NCBI RefSeq assembly: GCF_007483665.1
Contig: NZ_VIQO01000010.1
Location: forward strand, 124,001 to 188,000
Source of the DNA: Catellatospora sichuanensis
Lineage (GTDB): Bacteria > Actinomycetota > Actinomycetes > Mycobacteriales > Micromonosporaceae
Direction of reading: 5' to 3'
DNA length: 64,000 nucleotides
Shown one piece after another: positions 1 to 6,440 of the stretch; within the stretch, counting starts at the first letter, position 1; each line of letters opens with the position of its first letter. Both the position numbers and the translations under genes were made by a program. The notes under the pieces were generated by a model. That model was not told the DNA's origin, did no database searches, and saw nothing but the letters and a program-made list of their open reading frames with translations.

Positions 1-1899
1 CGCGTTGAAGCGCGGGCGCTCCCCGGTGTCGCGGAGGCTGTCCTGCTGGAAGCCGCTGCGGGCACGCTCGGCGAGTTCGTTGGCCAGCCGCTCGGCGGCC
101 GACGGCTGGTAGCCGCGCTGGGCGCGGTCGTCCAGGTCGCCCGCCCGGTCCACGGCGGGCTGCTGGTAACCGCCGCGGGGGCCGCGGTCGTTCGCGGGCT
201 CGACAGGCTGCTGGTAACCGCCGCGGTGGCCGCGGTCGTTCATGGGCTCGGCGGGCTGCTGGTAACCACCACGCGGGGCGCGGTCGTTCGCGGGCTCGGC
301 GGGCTGCTGGTAACCGCCGCGGGGGGCGCGGTCGGCCCGGTCGCTCGGCAGGTCGGCAGCGAGCTGCTGGTATCCGCGCGGCGCGTCGTCCACGGGCTCG
401 GCGGGCTGCTGGTAGCCGCGCGGCGCCTGCTCGGCGAGGTCGGCGGCGGGCTGCTGGTAGCCGAGATGTCCCTGCTCGACGGTCTCGTCGGGCAGGTCCG
501 CGGACGGGGCCTGGTTGAACCCGCGCGCTGCGCGCTCGCCGCTGATGACGGCGTTGGTCAGGGTCGGCACGAACGGCTTGCCCGCGTCGGCCGGCGGCCG
601 CGAGGTGCGCTGCGCCGGGATGGGGGCCTGCCGCGGCGGGATCGGGGTGGGCATCTGCCGGGTGGGCGCGGCAGGGGCCTCCTGGCGCGCCGCCACGGGC
701 ATGGCGACCATCGGGGTACCCGCGATCGGGGTCGGCTCGAAACCGGGCGGCACGGGCGGCGTGGAGGGCGCCCACGCGGGGCGGTCCACCGGCGGCGGCG
801 CGAGCGGCGTGCTCGACACCGGCTCGGGCGCGGTCGGCGGGGCCTGCACCGGGCGCGGCTGCGCCGGGGCGGCGTTCACGGCGGTCGGCTGCACGCGGCG
901 GCGGGCGCCGGTCGCGGCGGCCATCGCGGGCGGTGCCGAGGTGACCGGGACACCGGTCCGCCGAGCGGCGGGCTGGGCGGGCGCGGCGACCGGCGGCGGG
1001 GCCATCCGGTCGGCGAGCGTGTCGATGAGGGCGGCGCCGGCGGCGTCGGAGGAGCGCACGGCGGCCACGCTGTGGCGCACGGAGTCGGCCACGGCGGCGG
1101 TCAGCTGCTTGCCGATGCCGTTGCGGCGGGGGGTCTCCGCGATGGCGACGCGCAGCGCGGTGACCGCCTCCAGGGCGGTGCCGCTGTCGCAGACGCCGTC
1201 GGCGACGAGCCGGGCGGCGACGGTCTCGGCGGTCGCGCCGTTGTCACGGTTGCGGGAGCCGGACTGCCCGGCGAGCATGCCCGGCTCGGGCAGCGCCTCG
1301 AGCACGGCCAGGGCGACCGGGGCGGCGGGGTCGGGGTAGGCGCGCAGCGCGGCGGGATACAGCTCGCGCAGCACTTCGCGCAGGGCCACCGCGGCGGCGT
1401 GCCGGCCGACGGCCAGCGCCGCGTGCGCGGCCAGCACCGGCTTGAAGGCGACGAACTCGCGGGGCGCGGGACCGACCACTGCGGACAGCGCACCGGCCTG
1501 CAGCGCGCGGGCGAGCCCGACGGCACGGCGTTCGTCGGGGGAGGAGTTGGCCTCGTCGAGAGACTCGTCGTCGGCGAACCGGTCGGCGAAGTCGTCGGCG
1601 GACTCGTCATCGGTGTACGCGATCGCCCGGCCTGCCGCGGCGAGCAGCGAGATGACCTGCTGGTCGTCGCTGTCCGCGGCCACCGTGACCATCGTCGAGC
1701 CGCCGAACCTCTCCGCCAGCAGCGACGTCACCAGCGCGTAGCCGGCAGGATCGTCGTTGATGACGCAGAACTCCAGCAGCCTGCCGGAGTCGTCGACAAC
1801 GGCGACGGTCAGCCGGTTCACGGCCGCCGCAAGGTTGTCCCCCGCGTCGACCTCCGGAGCTGTCGACGCGATACCGCAGTACACCCGCACGAGCGCCAC
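1..1899 (-). CDS. Domesticated IS110-transposase-like protein with GYQQP-repeat tail (partial, 3' end outside window)
   Basis: 633 codons are visible from a GTG at 1899 with AGGAGG 8 nt upstream. The frame is open to the window edge, so the gene is incomplete at its 3' end. Residues ~1-215 resemble the N-terminal RNase H-like (DEDD) half of IS110-family transposases: opening strand VYCGI, second strand VAVVDDSGRLL (32-42), and a late helix REVLRELYPAALRAY (174-188) followed by ALAVLEALP. The catalytic acids are missing: Ala11 replaces the Asp expected after CGI, the strand that should carry Glu reads VTVAAD, and there is no DPGDA-like motif. Residues ~300-478 are Pro/Ala-rich. After that come seven GYQQ(P/L) units and a GYQP unit. 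No flanking terminal repeats are seen. I infer an exapted, non-transposing protein, possibly nucleic-acid binding. It lies 59 nt after the 277-residue gene and is probably co-transcribed. The fold assignment is by eye. Confidence 0.7.
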   Translation of the reverse strand, partial: MALVRVYCGIASTAPEVDAGDNLAAAVNRLTVAVVDDSGRLLEFCVINDDPAGYALVTSLLAERFGGSTMVTVAADSDDQQVISLLAAAGRAIAYTDDESADDFADRFADDESLDEANSSPDERRAVGLARALQAGALSAVVGPAPREFVAFKPVLAAHAALAVGRHAAAVALREVLRELYPAALRAYPDPAAPVALAVLEALPEPGMLAGQSGSRNRDNGATAETVAARLVADGVCDSGTALEAVTALRVAIAETPRRNGIGKQLTAAVADSVRHSVAAVRSSDAAGAALIDTLADRMAPPPVAAPAQPAARRTGVPVTSAPPAMAAATGARRRVQPTAVNAAPAQPRPVQAPPTAPEPVSSTPLAPPPVDRPAWAPSTPPVPPGFEPTPIAGTPMVAMPVAARQEAPAAPTRQMPTPIPPRQAPIPAQRTSRPPADAGKPFVPTLTNAVISGERAARGFNQAPSADLPDETVEQGHLGYQQPAADLAEQAPRGYQQPAEPVDDAPRGYQQLAADLPSDRADRAPRGGYQQPAEPANDRAPRGGYQQPAEPMNDRGHRGGYQQPVEPANDRGPRGGYQQPAVDRAGDLDDRAQRGYQPSAAERLANELAERARSGFQQDSLRDTGERPRFNA

Positions 1900-1958
1900 G
1901 GACTCGTCCTCCTCCCGGACCCCTCGTGTGCCAAAGACTGATGTTCCCTGGTTAGGGG

Positions 1959-2792
1959 TCAGTCGCGCCAGTCCACAGCGCCAGAGATCTTGCCAATAAT
2001 CGAGCGCCAGCCGATGGATGCCTGCTCTGCCCCGATTTTCTTCAGCTTTCGCTTGGCGAAGAAAGCGCCGACGCCGCCCTCTTCCGACGCGCGCAGCGCA
2101 TCGTCGAGGTCGTCGAGCGGGGAGCCGGGGGAGAGCGCCACCATGACGGGCTTGAGGCGAAGAGCGTAGCTCACGTCCCTGGCAAACTCCCCGGCGCGCA
2201 GCACCAGCTCGGCATCCCAGGCGTCCGGCCCGCCGCGCAGGTTCTCCACGACGAGGTCCAGTTCGTACGCGTCGTCCTCGCCCGCCACCACGTCGGTGGC
2301 CTTGACCGACTTCGCCAGCTTCGACCAGCCTTCGAGCTGCTTCATGTCGTGCGGTGCACCGGAGCGCACAAAGTCCGCCAGGCCCTTGGCCGACAGGAAC
2401 AGCAGCAGGCGGCCCTTGTGTGAGAGGAAGACGGGCACCTCCTCGTCGGAGACGACGGCGGCGTCCTCGTCGTCCTCCTCGTCGGCAGCCTCATCGGCCT
2501 CGGCGGTCTCCACGGCGCGCTCGGCGATCTCGTCCTCGGCGGGTGCCGCGGCGACCTCGTCCAAGGCCTCCTTGGTCCACTGGAACTCCGGCAGCTCCTC
2601 GTCGTCGGCGACGCCGATGGGGCGGCCGGTGCGACCGGCGAAGATCGCGTCGTCGTCCTCGCGGTCGGCGATGTCGGTCGGCGTCAGCTCGCTCGCGGGA
2701 CGGTACGCCCGCAGCGTCAATCCGACCTTGCCACCGGGCAGGGCTACCTCGACCGGCGAGACCTGGTACTCGTCCCAGAGCGTGCTTGCCAC
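1959..2792 (-). CDS. Conserved acidic hypothetical protein (277 aa)
   Basis: I do not recognise a characterised domain. The GTG start at 2792 has GGAGG 6 nt upstream. The N-terminal ~60 residues (opening ASTLWDEYQVSP) look folded. Residues ~75-120 are extremely acidic and disordered, rich in Glu/Asp/Ala. Residues ~120-277 look like a second folded domain, with VFLSHKGRLLLFLSAKGLADFV near the start and a basic FFAKRKLKKIG patch near the end. There is no signal peptide or membrane segment. Similar proteins occur in Micromonosporaceae and, as I recall, have sometimes been labelled 'primosomal protein'; nothing visible here supports that. It is the first gene of a probable two-gene unit with the IS110-like protein. 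Confidence 0.75.
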   Translation of the reverse strand: MASTLWDEYQVSPVEVALPGGKVGLTLRAYRPASELTPTDIADREDDDAIFAGRTGRPIGVADDEELPEFQWTKEALDEVAAAPAEDEIAERAVETAEADEAADEEDDEDAAVVSDEEVPVFLSHKGRLLLFLSAKGLADFVRSGAPHDMKQLEGWSKLAKSVKATDVVAGEDDAYELDLVVENLRGGPDAWDAELVLRAGEFARDVSYALRLKPVMVALSPGSPLDDLDDALRASEEGGVGAFFAKRKLKKIGAEQASIGWRSIIGKISGAVDWRD

Positions 2793-2863: not shown

Positions 2864-4660
2864 TCAGCCCCCGTGCGCCCGCACCCAACCCTGCGTTCCG
2901 CGCTCCTTCACCCGGCCACCGTCCAGCACCACGACCTCGTCGAACGCGTCGAGACCGGTCAGCCGGTGGGTCACCAGCACCACCGAGCGGTCGCCGCGGT
3001 GCGCCAGCACGGCGGCGAGGACCGCGTCCGCCTGCGCGGGATCGAGGCCTTCGGTCGGCTCGTCGAGCAGCAGCACCTGCGGGTCGGCCAGCACCGCGCG
3101 GGCCAGCGCCAGCCGCTGCCGCTGGCCGCCGGACAGCTCCGCGCCGTCCTCGCCGACGCGTACGTCCAGCCCGTGCGCGTCCACCCAGTCCCCCAGCCCG
3201 GCGGTCCGGCACGCGGCGACCAGCTCGTCGTCCGTCGCGGCAGGGCGGGCCAGCAGCAGGTTGTCGCGCACCGAGGCGTGGAACAGGTGCGCGTCGGCCA
3301 GCAGGCCGGTCACCGCCGCAGGCCACCGCTCCCGGTCGAACGCCGCGATCGGTGTGCCATCGGCTCCGGTCCCGTCGGCGTCCGCGGTCGGCGGATCCGG
3401 CTCGCCGCCCGCCCCGGACCGCGGGGCGCCGGGCACGGTCGGCTGCGCGGGGGCCGGGCCGGCCGTCACACGGCCGGAGTCCGGGGTGATCGCGCCGGTG
3501 AGCAGGGCGAGCAGAGTGCTCTTGCCCGCGCCGGACGGGCCGACGACCGCGACCCGGCGGCCGGGCGGCAGATCCAGGTCGATGTCGTGCAGGGCCGGCG
3601 GGGCGTCAGCCCGGTAACGCACCCCCGCGCCGCGCAGCCGCAGGTGTACGGATCCGTCCGGGACCGGCAGCCCGCCGGAGGCGGCGGGAGCAGGTTCACC
3701 CAGCAGCTCGGCCACCCGGCGCAGGCTGCCCTGGATCTCGGCGCCCTTGCGGGCGGCGGCCAGCAGCGACAGCGCCAGCTCCCCGGCGGCCAGGGTGGCC
3801 ACCGCGAGCACCGCGAGCCACACCCCGGGCAGGCCGCGCGACATGGCGGTGATCATTACGGCCATCGCGGTCACCCCGCCGAACGCGGTCGCCGCGGCGT
3901 CCACCGCGAACGAGCGCCGGGCCAGCGCGCGCTCCACCCGGGCCAGCTCGTCGGCGTGCGCCGCGCCGCGGGCCTCGTACTCGGGGCGGGCGCCGAAGGC
4001 GGCGAGGTCGGCCGCGCCGTGCACCAGGTCGACGGTGTCCACCGCGTACGCGGCGCGCAGCGGGGCCAGCCGGGCCGAGCCGTGCCGGGCCAGCCGGGCC
4101 GCCAGCAGCGGCAGCGCCACCCCGGTGACCAGAAGTCCGGCCAGCAGCACCAGGGCGACGGCCGGGTCGGCGAGCAGGGCGGTGCCGACCGCGGCGACGG
4201 CGACCAGCCCGGCCGCCGCCATCGGCAGCAGCACCCGGATCACCAGGTCCTGCACGGCGTCGACGTCGGAGACCATCCGGCTGAGCGCGTCCGCCCGGCG
4301 GGCCGGGGGCCGGTCGACGAGCGCCGCGAAGATCCGGGCGCGCACCTCGGTGACCATGCGCAGTACGGCGTCGTGGCTCGCCAGCCGCTCCACGTACCGC
4401 AGCACGCCGCGGCCGATGGCCAGCGCCCGCACCAGCACGATGGCGATCGACAGCGCGATCAGCGGCGGCTGTCCGGCCGCCGTCGCCAGCAGCCACGTCG
4501 CGGCGGCCATGAGGCCCAGGCCCGCCGCCTCGGTCCCGGCCGCCAGCAACCCGGCCCCCACAAAACGCCACCGCAACGGGTACGCGAACGCCAGCACCCG
4601 CCGCATCACGGAGTCGCGCCGCATCCCGCGCACCGCCGCCTCCCCGATCCCGCTCATCAC
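2864..4660 (-). CDS. cydC: Thiol reductant ABC exporter subunit CydC
   Basis: This is one half of the heterodimeric CydDC exporter, which moves glutathione or cysteine-type thiols outward and is needed for cytochrome bd assembly. The 598 residues comprise a six-helix membrane domain (~25-305) and a nucleotide-binding domain with Walker A GPSGAGKST (374-382), signature [14 protein letters not shown] and Walker B VLLLDEPTEGLD (529-540). Two oddities: a ~37-residue low-complexity Gly/Pro/Asp insert (~401-437) between Walker A and the Q-loop region, and that region reads LLADAHLF, without the usual Gln. It lies 121 nt downstream of cydD on the same strand, separated by a dyad repeat. The cytochrome bd genes cydAB are not in the window. 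Confidence 0.93.
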   Translation of the reverse strand: MMSGIGEAAVRGMRRDSVMRRVLAFAYPLRWRFVGAGLLAAGTEAAGLGLMAAATWLLATAAGQPPLIALSIAIVLVRALAIGRGVLRYVERLASHDAVLRMVTEVRARIFAALVDRPPARRADALSRMVSDVDAVQDLVIRVLLPMAAAGLVAVAAVGTALLADPAVALVLLAGLLVTGVALPLLAARLARHGSARLAPLRAAYAVDTVDLVHGAADLAAFGARPEYEARGAAHADELARVERALARRSFAVDAAATAFGGVTAMAVMITAMSRGLPGVWLAVLAVATLAAGELALSLLAAARKGAEIQGSLRRVAELLGEPAPAASGGLPVPDGSVHLRLRGAGVRYRADAPPALHDIDLDLPPGRRVAVVGPSGAGKSTLLALLTGAITPDSGRVTAGPAPAQPTVPGAPRSGAGGEPDPPTADADGTGADGTPIAAFDRERWPAAVTGLLADAHLFHASVRDNLLLARPAATDDELVAACRTAGLGDWVDAHGLDVRVGEDGAELSGGQRQRLALARAVLADPQVLLLDEPTEGLDPAQADAVLAAVLAHRGDRSVVLVTHRLTGLDAFDEVVVLDGGRVKERGTQGWVRAHGG

Positions 4661-4689
4661 GCGACCCCGCCGTGCGCGATCGCGGTCCG

Positions 4690-4749
4690 GCAGTTTCGGG
4701 GAAAGTGCAGGAAAGGGCAGGCCGATTCCTGCGGGTTCCCCGAAACTGC
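4690..4749. repeat. Intergenic dyad repeat, family C copy 1
   Basis: A 60-bp element between cydD and cydC, bounded by GCAGTTTCGGGGAA at the left and TTCCCCGAAACTGC at the right. It has a near twin at 44477-44536 of identical length and orientation, with about 50 of 60 positions matching by eye. The 14-bp outer arms are identical in both copies. Its position inside a probable operon argues against a simple strong terminator. Confidence 0.8.
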
Positions 4750-4781
4750 AAGCCGCGTGGCGGGGCGTCGGCGTGGGGCGG

Positions 4782-6440
4782 TCATGCGGTCACCAGTTCG
4801 TGGAGGGTGCCCTGGTCGATGCGGACCACGCGGGTGGCGGCGGCGAGCAGGGCGGGGCGGTGGGCGACCAGCAGTGCGGTGCGGCCCTCGACCAGGGACA
4901 GGGTGGAGGAGACCACCGCCTGCTCGCTGGCGGCGTCGAGGCGGGCCGTCGGCTCGTCGAGCAGCAGCAGGGGAGCGTCGCGCAGGAAGGCGCGGGCCAG
5001 CGCGAGCCGCTGGCGCTCGCCGCTGGACAGGCCGTGTCCGCGCTCGCCGAGCACGGTGTCCAGGCCCTGCGGCAGCGCGTCGACCACGGGGCCGAGCGCG
5101 GCTGCGCGAGCGGCCTGCGCGATGCGCTCCCGGGGGGCGTCCGGCGTGCCCAGCGCGATGTTGGCGGCCAGCGTGTCGGCGAACAGGTGGGCCCGCTGCG
5201 GCACCCAGCCGAGCTGCCGCCGCCAGCCGTCGAGGTCGAGTTCGGCCAGGTCCACGCCGTCCACCAGGATGCGGCCCGCGGTCGGCGTGGTGAAGCCGAG
5301 CAGCAGGTCGAGCAGCGTGCTCTTGCCGCCGCCGCTCGGGCCGACCAGGGCGATCCGCTCGCCGGGCCGGATCGTGAGGTCGACGTCGCGCAGCGCGGTG
5401 GTGCGCTCGTACGCGACGGTCACCCCGCGCAGCTCGATCACGCCGCCGCGCGGCGCGGTGCGCGTACCCCCGGCTGATCCGCCGCCGGCGGCCGCCAGCA
5501 GGGTGAACGCCTGGTCCAGTGCGGTCAGGCCCTCCATGCTCGCGTGGAACTTCGTGCCTGCGGCACGCAGCGGGGCGTACGCCTCCGGGGTCAGCAGCAG
5601 CACGGTGAACGCGGCGGTCAGCGTCATCCCGCCGCCCAGCAGCCGCAGACCCACCGGCACCGCCACCAGCGCGACCGAGATCGTGCCGACCAGCTCCAGC
5701 ACCAGCGCGGACAGGAAGGCGATGCGCAGCGTGCGCATCGTCGCCTCGCGGTGCCGGTCGGCCATCTCGCGCACCGCGGTGACCTGCGCGCGGGCCCGGC
5801 CGAACGCCTTCAGCGTGGGCAGGCCGGACAGCATGTCCAGGAAGTGGCCGCCGAGCATGCTCAGCCGCCGCCACTGGCGCTCGGTCGCGATGCGGGTCTG
5901 CCAGCCGACCAGGATGCCGAAGATCGGGATGAGCGGCAGGGTGACCAGCACGATCACCGCCGAGGCGAGGTCGGCGAACGCGAGCATGGCCAGCACCCCG
6001 ACCGGCACCGTCACCCCCAGCACGAGCTGCGGCAGGTATCCGGTGAAGTAGCCGTCCAGCGCGTCCAGGCCCCGCCCGGTGAGTGTGGCCAGCTCTCCCG
6101 CCCGCTGCCCGGCCAGCCAGCCCGGCCCGCGGCGGCCGACCGCCCCGAGCAGGTCGGCCCGCAGGCTCGCCTTGACCGTGGCCGCCATGCGCGCCGCCAC
6201 CACGCCCAGCCCGCTGGTGAGCGCCGCGCGGGCGGTCAGCGCGAGCAGGAACCCGGTGATCGCGGCCGGGTCCAGCCGCAGCTCGACGGCGGCGGCCAGC
6301 GCTCGGGCGAGCGCGGCCGCCGCGGTGACGACGGTGATGGCGACAGCCGCCCCGAGCACCCCCAGCAGGACCACGTCACGCCGGGTGGACGGGACCTGCC
6401 GGAGCAGACGGGGATCGAACGGACGCGCCACGCTGTCCAT
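4782..6440 (-). CDS. cydD: Thiol reductant ABC exporter subunit CydD
   Basis: Partner of CydC in the inner-membrane thiol exporter. The 552 residues comprise a transmembrane domain (~20-315) and an ATPase domain with Walker [10 protein letters not shown], an atypical signature [14 protein letters not shown] (Ser for Gly in LSGGQ) and Walker [13 protein letters not shown]. Membrane helices are clear in [15 protein letters not shown] and [16 protein letters not shown]. It is transcribed ahead of cydC. The ATG at 6440 is 18 nt from the end of the upstream sigma factor gene, so read-through from that gene is possible. Confidence 0.93.

Follow-up and report, generated by a model that had tools for sequence, protein, structure and literature searches.

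IS110 recombinases are RNA-guided enzymes of bacterial mobile elements. In one of them, IS621, residues 1-122 form the RuvC domain, residues 123-188 the coiled coil, and residues 189-326 the Tnp domain, and recombination is abolished by mutating D11, E60, D102, D105, or S241 (PMC11208158; this and the other papers cited by accession are drawn on in excerpt). What can remain of such a protein once it no longer recombines DNA? Here we describe a gene at the left edge of a 64,000-nucleotide stretch of the 9.45-Mb genome of Catellatospora sichuanensis (the window; genome G000, contig C6, positions 124001-188000). Its product, which we call the dead-DEDD protein, joins an IS110-type N-terminal half to a C-terminal tail of the kind carried by the sensor kinases of conservons, and a conservon adjoins the gene.

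The systems on the conservon side are less fully described. The motif that marks the tail was named LPxR by Wuichet and Sogaard-Andersen, who called its arginine notable, given that neither the conservon GTPases nor their MglB-like partners have a conserved arginine finger (PMC4316618); in the excerpted conservon literature the role of the LPxR tail is not established (PMC4316618, PMC13343842). CvnF8 stimulates its kinase (PMC13343842), and in the MglB/RomY pair of Myxococcus the second protein boosts the GTPase-activating protein (GAP) activity of the roadblock protein on a Ras-like GTPase (PMC9481161). Finally, Nop5 is related to IS110, and archaeal Nop5 combines a dead RuvC-like domain, a coiled coil, and an RNA-binding Nop domain in an RNA-guided scaffold (PMC12045711). 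The origin of the dead-DEDD protein (an IS110 fragment of RuvC and coiled coil that lost Tnp) and its architecture (fragment, linker, LPxR tail) are well supported, and we hold them with high confidence.

Results

Residues 1-300 are homologous to the RuvC (DEDD) and coiled-coil domains of IS110 recombinases. By itself the window protein scores 14.8 bits against PF01548, under the cut-off of 29, but its homologue L050 scores 39-41.5 bits, over that cut-off, and PF01548 is matched at E<=0.01 by four of 21 family members. When the family profile is compared with an IS110 profile, hhalign gives a probability of 99.3 and an E-value of 3.7e-20 across 262 columns that end with the coiled coil; a YPAALxAF-type motif and the coiled coil are common to both sides.

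Structure prediction points the same way. The alignment behind the first model consisted of 14 close family sequences and included no IS110. The model is weak (predicted local distance difference test score, pLDDT, 58.6), and in its Foldseek comparison with the PDB ranks 1-9 are all IS110 recombinases, the best at E 1.5e-3 and none at E<=0.001. For the second model three viral-contig IS110 sequences were added, and it is hence not independent of IS110; it reaches a pLDDT of 78.9 and a predicted template modelling score (pTM) of 0.75, and shows the RNase H order of strands and helices followed by a long helix at 147-180 and another at 268-299. IS110 occupies ranks 1-6 of its PDB list (best E 8.7e-4), Spt6/Tex is interleaved from rank 7, and Nop5 stands much lower. 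Template modelling (TM) scores to IS110 chains are low (0.2-0.34), with large root-mean-square deviations over whole chains, and it is the ranking that we used. No significant match came from a PDB sequence search, nor any match from a scan of viral sequences with one IS110 query. On one viral contig (L150:1019-2131) we observed an IS110 gene that a stop divides into a 170-residue and a 200-residue frame.

The L050 score, the profile match, and the Foldseek ranking together indicate that the resemblance to IS110 is not due to chance, a possibility we reject. The domain could instead descend from another group of RuvC/RNase H-like domains (YqgF/Tex-like or ROK-like), its likeness to IS110 being superficial; this would account for the Spt6/Tex and ROK proteins in the structure lists, the second of which mixes Spt6/Tex with IS110 from rank 7. 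IS110 nevertheless comes first in both lists, the coiled coil and YPAALxAF-type motif are shared, and L050 exceeds the PF01548 cut-off, which makes such an origin highly improbable. A first-pass annotation, made from the letters of the window, had proposed an IS110-like domain over the first 215 or so residues. The domain stands, and the resemblance persists outside the window sequence, in L050; its extent does not stand, as the homology runs through the coiled coil to about residue 300. The fold comparison that the same annotation called for ranks IS110 recombinases first with both models, weak or IS110-seeded as these are.

What has been lost is equally clear. PF02371, the Tnp domain with the catalytic Ser, finds no match in the seven family frames scanned, nor in L045, the locus that holds the whole window gene; the other three proteins of that scan are transposases, and two of them have PF02371. 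By the IS621 limits, then, the family as read from its sequences retains the first two domains and is without the third. Catalytic positions were counted in an alignment of 33 members and 25 transposases, all 25 of which were kept. The column of D11 holds D in none of the 33 members (A in 25, T in six, S and V in one each) and in 22 of the 25 IS110s, and the full DEDD tetrad is likewise present in 0/33 against 22/25. The other acids fare differently. At E60 there is D in 27 members and E in one (28/33 acidic); at D102, D in four and E in four; at D105, R in 22 and D in two, the D102 and D105 counts being alignment-dependent, given a shifted DxxD in some deep members. In the window protein D11 has become A, E60 has become D, D102 is retained, and D105 has become R.

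D11 and D105 are each essential in IS621, and the catalytic centre of the family is therefore very probably dead. The first-pass annotation had all recognisable acidic positions replaced. For D11 and D105 this was right, whereas D102 is kept and E60 is conservatively D; across the family the loss is universal at D11 (33/33), while an acid persists at E60 in 28/33, at D102 in 8/33, and at D105 in 2/33. Complete loss of all four acids is thus rejected by the 33-member alignment. In the deep-branch members L053, L054, L056, and L147 a DxxD lies near D102/D105, shifted by one residue as judged by eye, a hint of metal binding or of slower decay.

The gene itself is longer than the window suggests. 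It lies on the minus strand and starts with GTG at window position 1899; positions 1..1899 encode the first 633 of 898 residues, the window edge cuts the frame, and the rest lies to the left (whole gene L045:7203-9899, minus). Four stretches can be told apart. Residues 1-145 (1465..1899, minus) are the inactivated RuvC/RNase H-like domain of IS110 type, with A, D, D, and R in the catalytic columns. Residues 146-300 (1000..1464, minus) are a helical region homologous to the IS110 coiled-coil (dimerisation) domain, drawn with the IS621 domain limits (PMC11208158), and no Tnp domain follows. A fast-evolving Pro-rich linker spans residues 301 to about 748, of which 301-633 are in the window (1..999, minus), and a conserved tail occupies about 749-898. 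The conserved LPxR tail falls outside the window, at G000 C6:123338-123652. The clean frame described earlier is real but incomplete in the window, and its conserved C terminus is outside. Likewise, the Pro-rich, GYQQP-containing region described as the C-terminal half indeed contains no Tnp domain, but the repeats are linker and not the functional end of the protein. These GYQQP repeats (TRF arrays within about 123-463) sit in the fast-evolving linker and, among the frames counted, are confined to part of Catellatospora. The best named matches to residues 1-300 come from four Catellatospora species, at 96-98%.

The adjoining conservon, on the opposite strand, is complete: cvnABCD encode a NIT/HAMP/HATPase kinase, a roadblock protein, a DUF742 protein, and a Ras-like GTPase. 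The 898-residue protein has no Pfam match at E<=0.01 to NIT, HAMP, or HATPase, and what it has in common with CvnA is the tail. Comparison of 26 family tails with 20 neighbouring CvnA tails by hhalign gives a probability of 98.4 and E 8e-15, against a probability of 0.1 for a reversed control. In its own genome, which has five DUF742 genes over cut-off, the tail profile finds the dead-DEDD protein at 1e-43, the adjacent CvnA at 8e-28, and third place at 0.0056 (150 of 278 candidates scored). The motif G[LI]PxR is present in 39/39 family tails and 34/34 CvnA-type tails, the tails having been picked with a profile that holds the motif; SAWF, D.GW, and Y..G motifs are conserved besides LPxR. Among 148 class-level genomes, G000 and G013 included, 53 have the tail, mostly in frames of 900-1400 residues, and it is thus probably older in CvnA than in the dead-DEDD family. 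Thirteen tail loci outside the family (L121-L133) were inspected: eight have kinase homology, and for the other five, most of whose frames run off the fetched stretch, none is found in that stretch and the label CvnA-type is unproven.

Gene order ties the protein to roadblock proteins as well. We read 40 contexts, several from one genus, 20 of them 18 kb long. In 18 of the 40 the dead-DEDD gene is followed directly by a codirectional second roadblock gene (CvnB/MglB-like), and Robl_LC7 was confirmed in all four of these downstream genes that were scanned. The spacing is operon-like: in 17 of the 18 the roadblock match starts 0-22 bases past the stop or overlaps it by 6, and in the other it starts 125 bases past. 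The 18 are made up of every one of the 17 tree rows that fall outside the main clade (16 rows) and one from within it, L014. As the roadblock gene is next in 17/17 rows outside the main clade, the older layout was probably [dead IS110 + LPxR tail]-[roadblock], which is the cvnA-cvnB order with the kinase replaced. The conservon itself is convergent with the dead-DEDD gene in 17 of the 20 18-kb contexts, and no second CvnD was found in the 40. Where the second roadblock would stand, the window's lineage and part of the main clade have a gene for a Peripla_BP_6 periplasmic binding protein (L045:5788-7083, minus); in other main-clade members nothing recognised stands before the conservon.

How widely is this arrangement kept? 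Of 150 Micromonosporaceae genomes, 148 have the family, each with a best match at E<=1.1e-31, and so do 43 of 44 genera in the GTDB sense. As for the two genomes with no match, in G304 the family tail lies on a 5.5-kb contig too short to reach the domain, and the conservon contig of G242, at 3.7 kb, is uninformative. With the family profile the family was not seen outside Micromonosporaceae in samples of 200 order-level and 197 class-level genomes, in which the 11-12 best candidates per genome were scored. What matched there was weaker, at E 8e-21 to 1e-5, and most of the frames had about 150-460 residues (longest 756); when 22 weaker matches were fetched (17 outside the family and five in Micromonosporaceae genomes), all 22 matched the family profile and none had the tail. 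Two candidate members were rejected on inspection: G450, of 756 residues, is an IS110 with an open frame upstream, and G343 is an IS110 in two frames. In a tree calculated without the rows T_L117, T_L135, and T_L101, the 33 members lie on one side of a branch with support 100/98, compatible with one origin.

The window gene has one copy in its own genome and a conserved gene order. Among the matches listed at E<=1.1e-31, a second copy appears only in G271 and G273. These (L145:1519-3021 and L146:449-2330, respectively) are divergent DEDD-plus-tail copies elsewhere in the genome, and in L146 the domain and the tail match separate open frames. Nei-Gojobori estimates of omega, the ratio of nonsynonymous to synonymous substitution rates, taken from nine pairs among 7/8 aligned genes, are 0.10-0.23 for residues 1-300, 0.30-0.68 for the linker (residues 301-748), where the alignments are loose, and 0.18-0.44 for the tail. 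By these estimates selection on residues 1-300 is purifying, and by its distribution the gene is a core gene of Micromonosporaceae, vertically kept. A decaying transposase remnant with no function could be expected to have lost its catalytic residues and to carry repeats in a linker, as this protein does. Set against presence in 148/150 genomes, conserved gene order in 40 contexts, omega of 0.10-0.23, and a conserved tail, that explanation is scarcely credible. The earlier proposal of a domesticated IS110 member with a disabled active site is strongly supported by monophyly, vertical inheritance, purifying selection, and loss of Tnp.

Upstream, the locus is simpler. A ribosome-binding site, GGGAGGAGG, lies just ahead of the GTG start (1900..1920, minus), and the open frame with a good ribosome site that the first pass described is borne out. 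So is its place among conserved neighbours, on the gene order of the 40 contexts. The codirectional gene upstream (1959..2792, minus) weakly matches the C-terminal part of the mycobacterial export chaperone SatS (NF050072, 30.7 bits against a cut-off of 700); it is the upstream neighbour in 37 of the 40 contexts and may therefore share an operon with the dead-DEDD gene. In many main-clade contexts the SatS-like gene is preceded by two CydC/CydD-like ATP-binding cassette (ABC) transporter genes, here at 2864-6440 (minus), each of which fuses a membrane part to an ATPase part. Pfam identifies ABC_tran and ABC_membrane in them, with ABC_membrane under its cut-off in the first gene.

Discussion

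What might a recombinase fragment do beside a G-protein system? We lean, with moderate confidence, towards a signalling role in which the dead-DEDD protein would be a kinase-free, dimeric input to, or co-regulator of, the conservon's Ras-like GTPase. We propose that the IS110 coiled coil dimerises the protein, and that the inactive DEDD/RuvC half serves as a protein-binding or sensing scaffold in place of the sensor-kinase half of CvnA. The long linker would let the LPxR tail reach CvnD, the roadblock protein, or both; the roadblock partner would be the protein's own second roadblock outside the main clade and the neighbour's CvnB in the window's lineage. The result would be a cytosolic, kinase-independent second input to the adjacent G-protein system, or a co-GAP-like regulator of it. 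Such a gene would most likely have arisen when an IS110 gene was fused into a duplicated cvnA-cvnB pair. A more specific version goes further: with the kinase of a sensor replaced by the dead RuvC/coiled-coil half, an arginine-finger-like LPxR tail and its roadblock partner would directly regulate the Ras-like GTPase, in a Nop5-like exaptation that possibly still senses nucleic acid. This we regard as tentative and, taken as a whole, rather doubtful.

Several observations weigh against the proposed signalling role or loosen its tie to the adjacent conservon. The dead-DEDD gene is convergent with the conservon operon, not inside it, and the two are not always neighbours: in three of the 20 18-kb contexts (L064, L065, and L074) the stretch contains no conservon. 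The second roadblock gene is absent in the window's lineage, where the partner must consequently be CvnB or another protein. Some genomes have the tail in more than two proteins, strong matches numbering three in G013 and four in G304. The family tail motif, PQANLVPG, resembles the PKANLVPG of CvnA-type tails from other families more closely than the PMAQLVPG of the adjacent one, and the tail donor may therefore be another conservon. In the excerpted text of PMC4316618 the authors are themselves cautious about the function of the LPxR arginine. Two last points leave room for nucleic acid: the first coiled-coil helix is still slightly basic (+1.0, compared with +2.0 in transposases), and in the main clade the downstream gap can be as long as 573 bases, enough to house an RNA.

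It was as a nucleic-acid-guided or RNA-binding host factor that the first-pass annotation had imagined the protein. In this alternative the inactive RuvC/coiled-coil half would still bind a nucleic acid (RNA or DNA), like archaeal Nop5, and through the tail the state of that nucleic acid would feed into G-protein signalling. Besides the basic helix and the downstream gaps, it can draw on the Nop5/Nop56 and Spt6/Tex chains that follow IS110 among the structural matches (the Nop chains weakly, at E 0.1-0.2), and on residues 166-206, which contain most of the invariant columns and are roughly equivalent to positions 126-207 of one IS110, reported as an RNA-contacting region in the TIGR-Tas paper that also describes the dead RuvC of Nop5 (PMC12045711). 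Yet the Tnp domain, which in IS621 recognises conserved bridge-RNA nucleotides (PMC11208158), is gone. Bridge-RNA numbering in IS621 exceeds 150 (PMC11208158), whereas 30 of 37 contexts leave fewer than 100 bases upstream of the gene, and 17 of the 18 that have a second roadblock leave fewer than 25 downstream. Rfam has no match in 14 kb at the locus. The domain is also acidic: net charge per 100 residues averages -4.4 over 33 members and +0.3 over 19 transposases, and the members have one third fewer Lys and Arg (counted without the IS110 rows T_L117, T_L135, T_L101, T_L104, T_L048, and T_L100). A nucleic-acid role thus finds no support in the Tnp loss, the short upstream gaps, the Rfam result, and the acidic domain, and we consider it quite improbable; a bridge RNA at the locus, with no Rfam match and short gaps, was rejected as the main idea, though an RNA encoded at a distant locus might still be used.

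A second alternative keeps the tail as the working part and changes its target. The tail might bind something outside the GTPase module to which CvnA binds too, such as a polarity or envelope protein; the dead-DEDD protein would then compete with the kinase or share its scaffold, independently of GTP hydrolysis. That the tail is common to the adjacent CvnA and has the extra conserved SAWF, D.GW, and Y..G motifs is in keeping with this idea. The roadblock gene that comes next in 18/40 contexts, by contrast, ties the protein to a GTPase regulator and not to an unrelated partner, and we judge the alternative unlikely.

Under the signalling role that we favour, part of a mobile element seems to have been recruited into bacterial signalling. 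The family represents a bacterial RNA-guided recombinase that, having shed catalysis and its RNA-reading domain, became fixed as a core gene throughout a family, in parallel with the dead RuvC of Nop5. A search of open-licence papers by title and start of abstract returned, among the matches listed, none joining IS110 with conservons. For conservons the protein is a natural experiment: because its LPxR tail is separated from any kinase, an action of the tail by itself on the GTPase or on the roadblock protein can be tested directly.

How, finally, does the protein compare with the described systems? CvnF and CvnE, encoded with some conservons, are likewise non-kinase proteins; those accessory proteins are GAF or P450 proteins that modulate CvnA, and the excerpts of PMC13343842 mention no IS110 domain among them. 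With the CvnA sensor kinases it shares the C-terminal LPxR tail, a place before a roadblock gene in 18 of 40 contexts, and a usual position next to a conservon. It differs from them in having by Pfam no NIT, HAMP, or HATPase, in carrying an inactive IS110 half instead, and in showing no CvnD of its own in the 40 contexts. The MglB/RomY bipartite GAP of Myxococcus offers an analogy for the proposed role. Archaeal and eukaryotic Nop5 and Nop56/58, of the box C/D snoRNP, likewise pair an inactive RuvC-like domain with a coiled coil and give weak structural matches (2nnw, 3pla, and 3id6), but their Nop domain was not seen in the family. The closest relatives are the IS110 recombinases themselves (IS621 and ISCro4; PF01548 plus PF02371), which have the same RuvC-like fold and coiled coil, common ancestry, and the top structural matches. 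The family departs from them in the loss of D11 and usually of D105, in being without the Tnp domain and its catalytic Ser, in an upstream gap mostly too short for a bridge RNA, and in being single-copy and constant in position in almost every genome.

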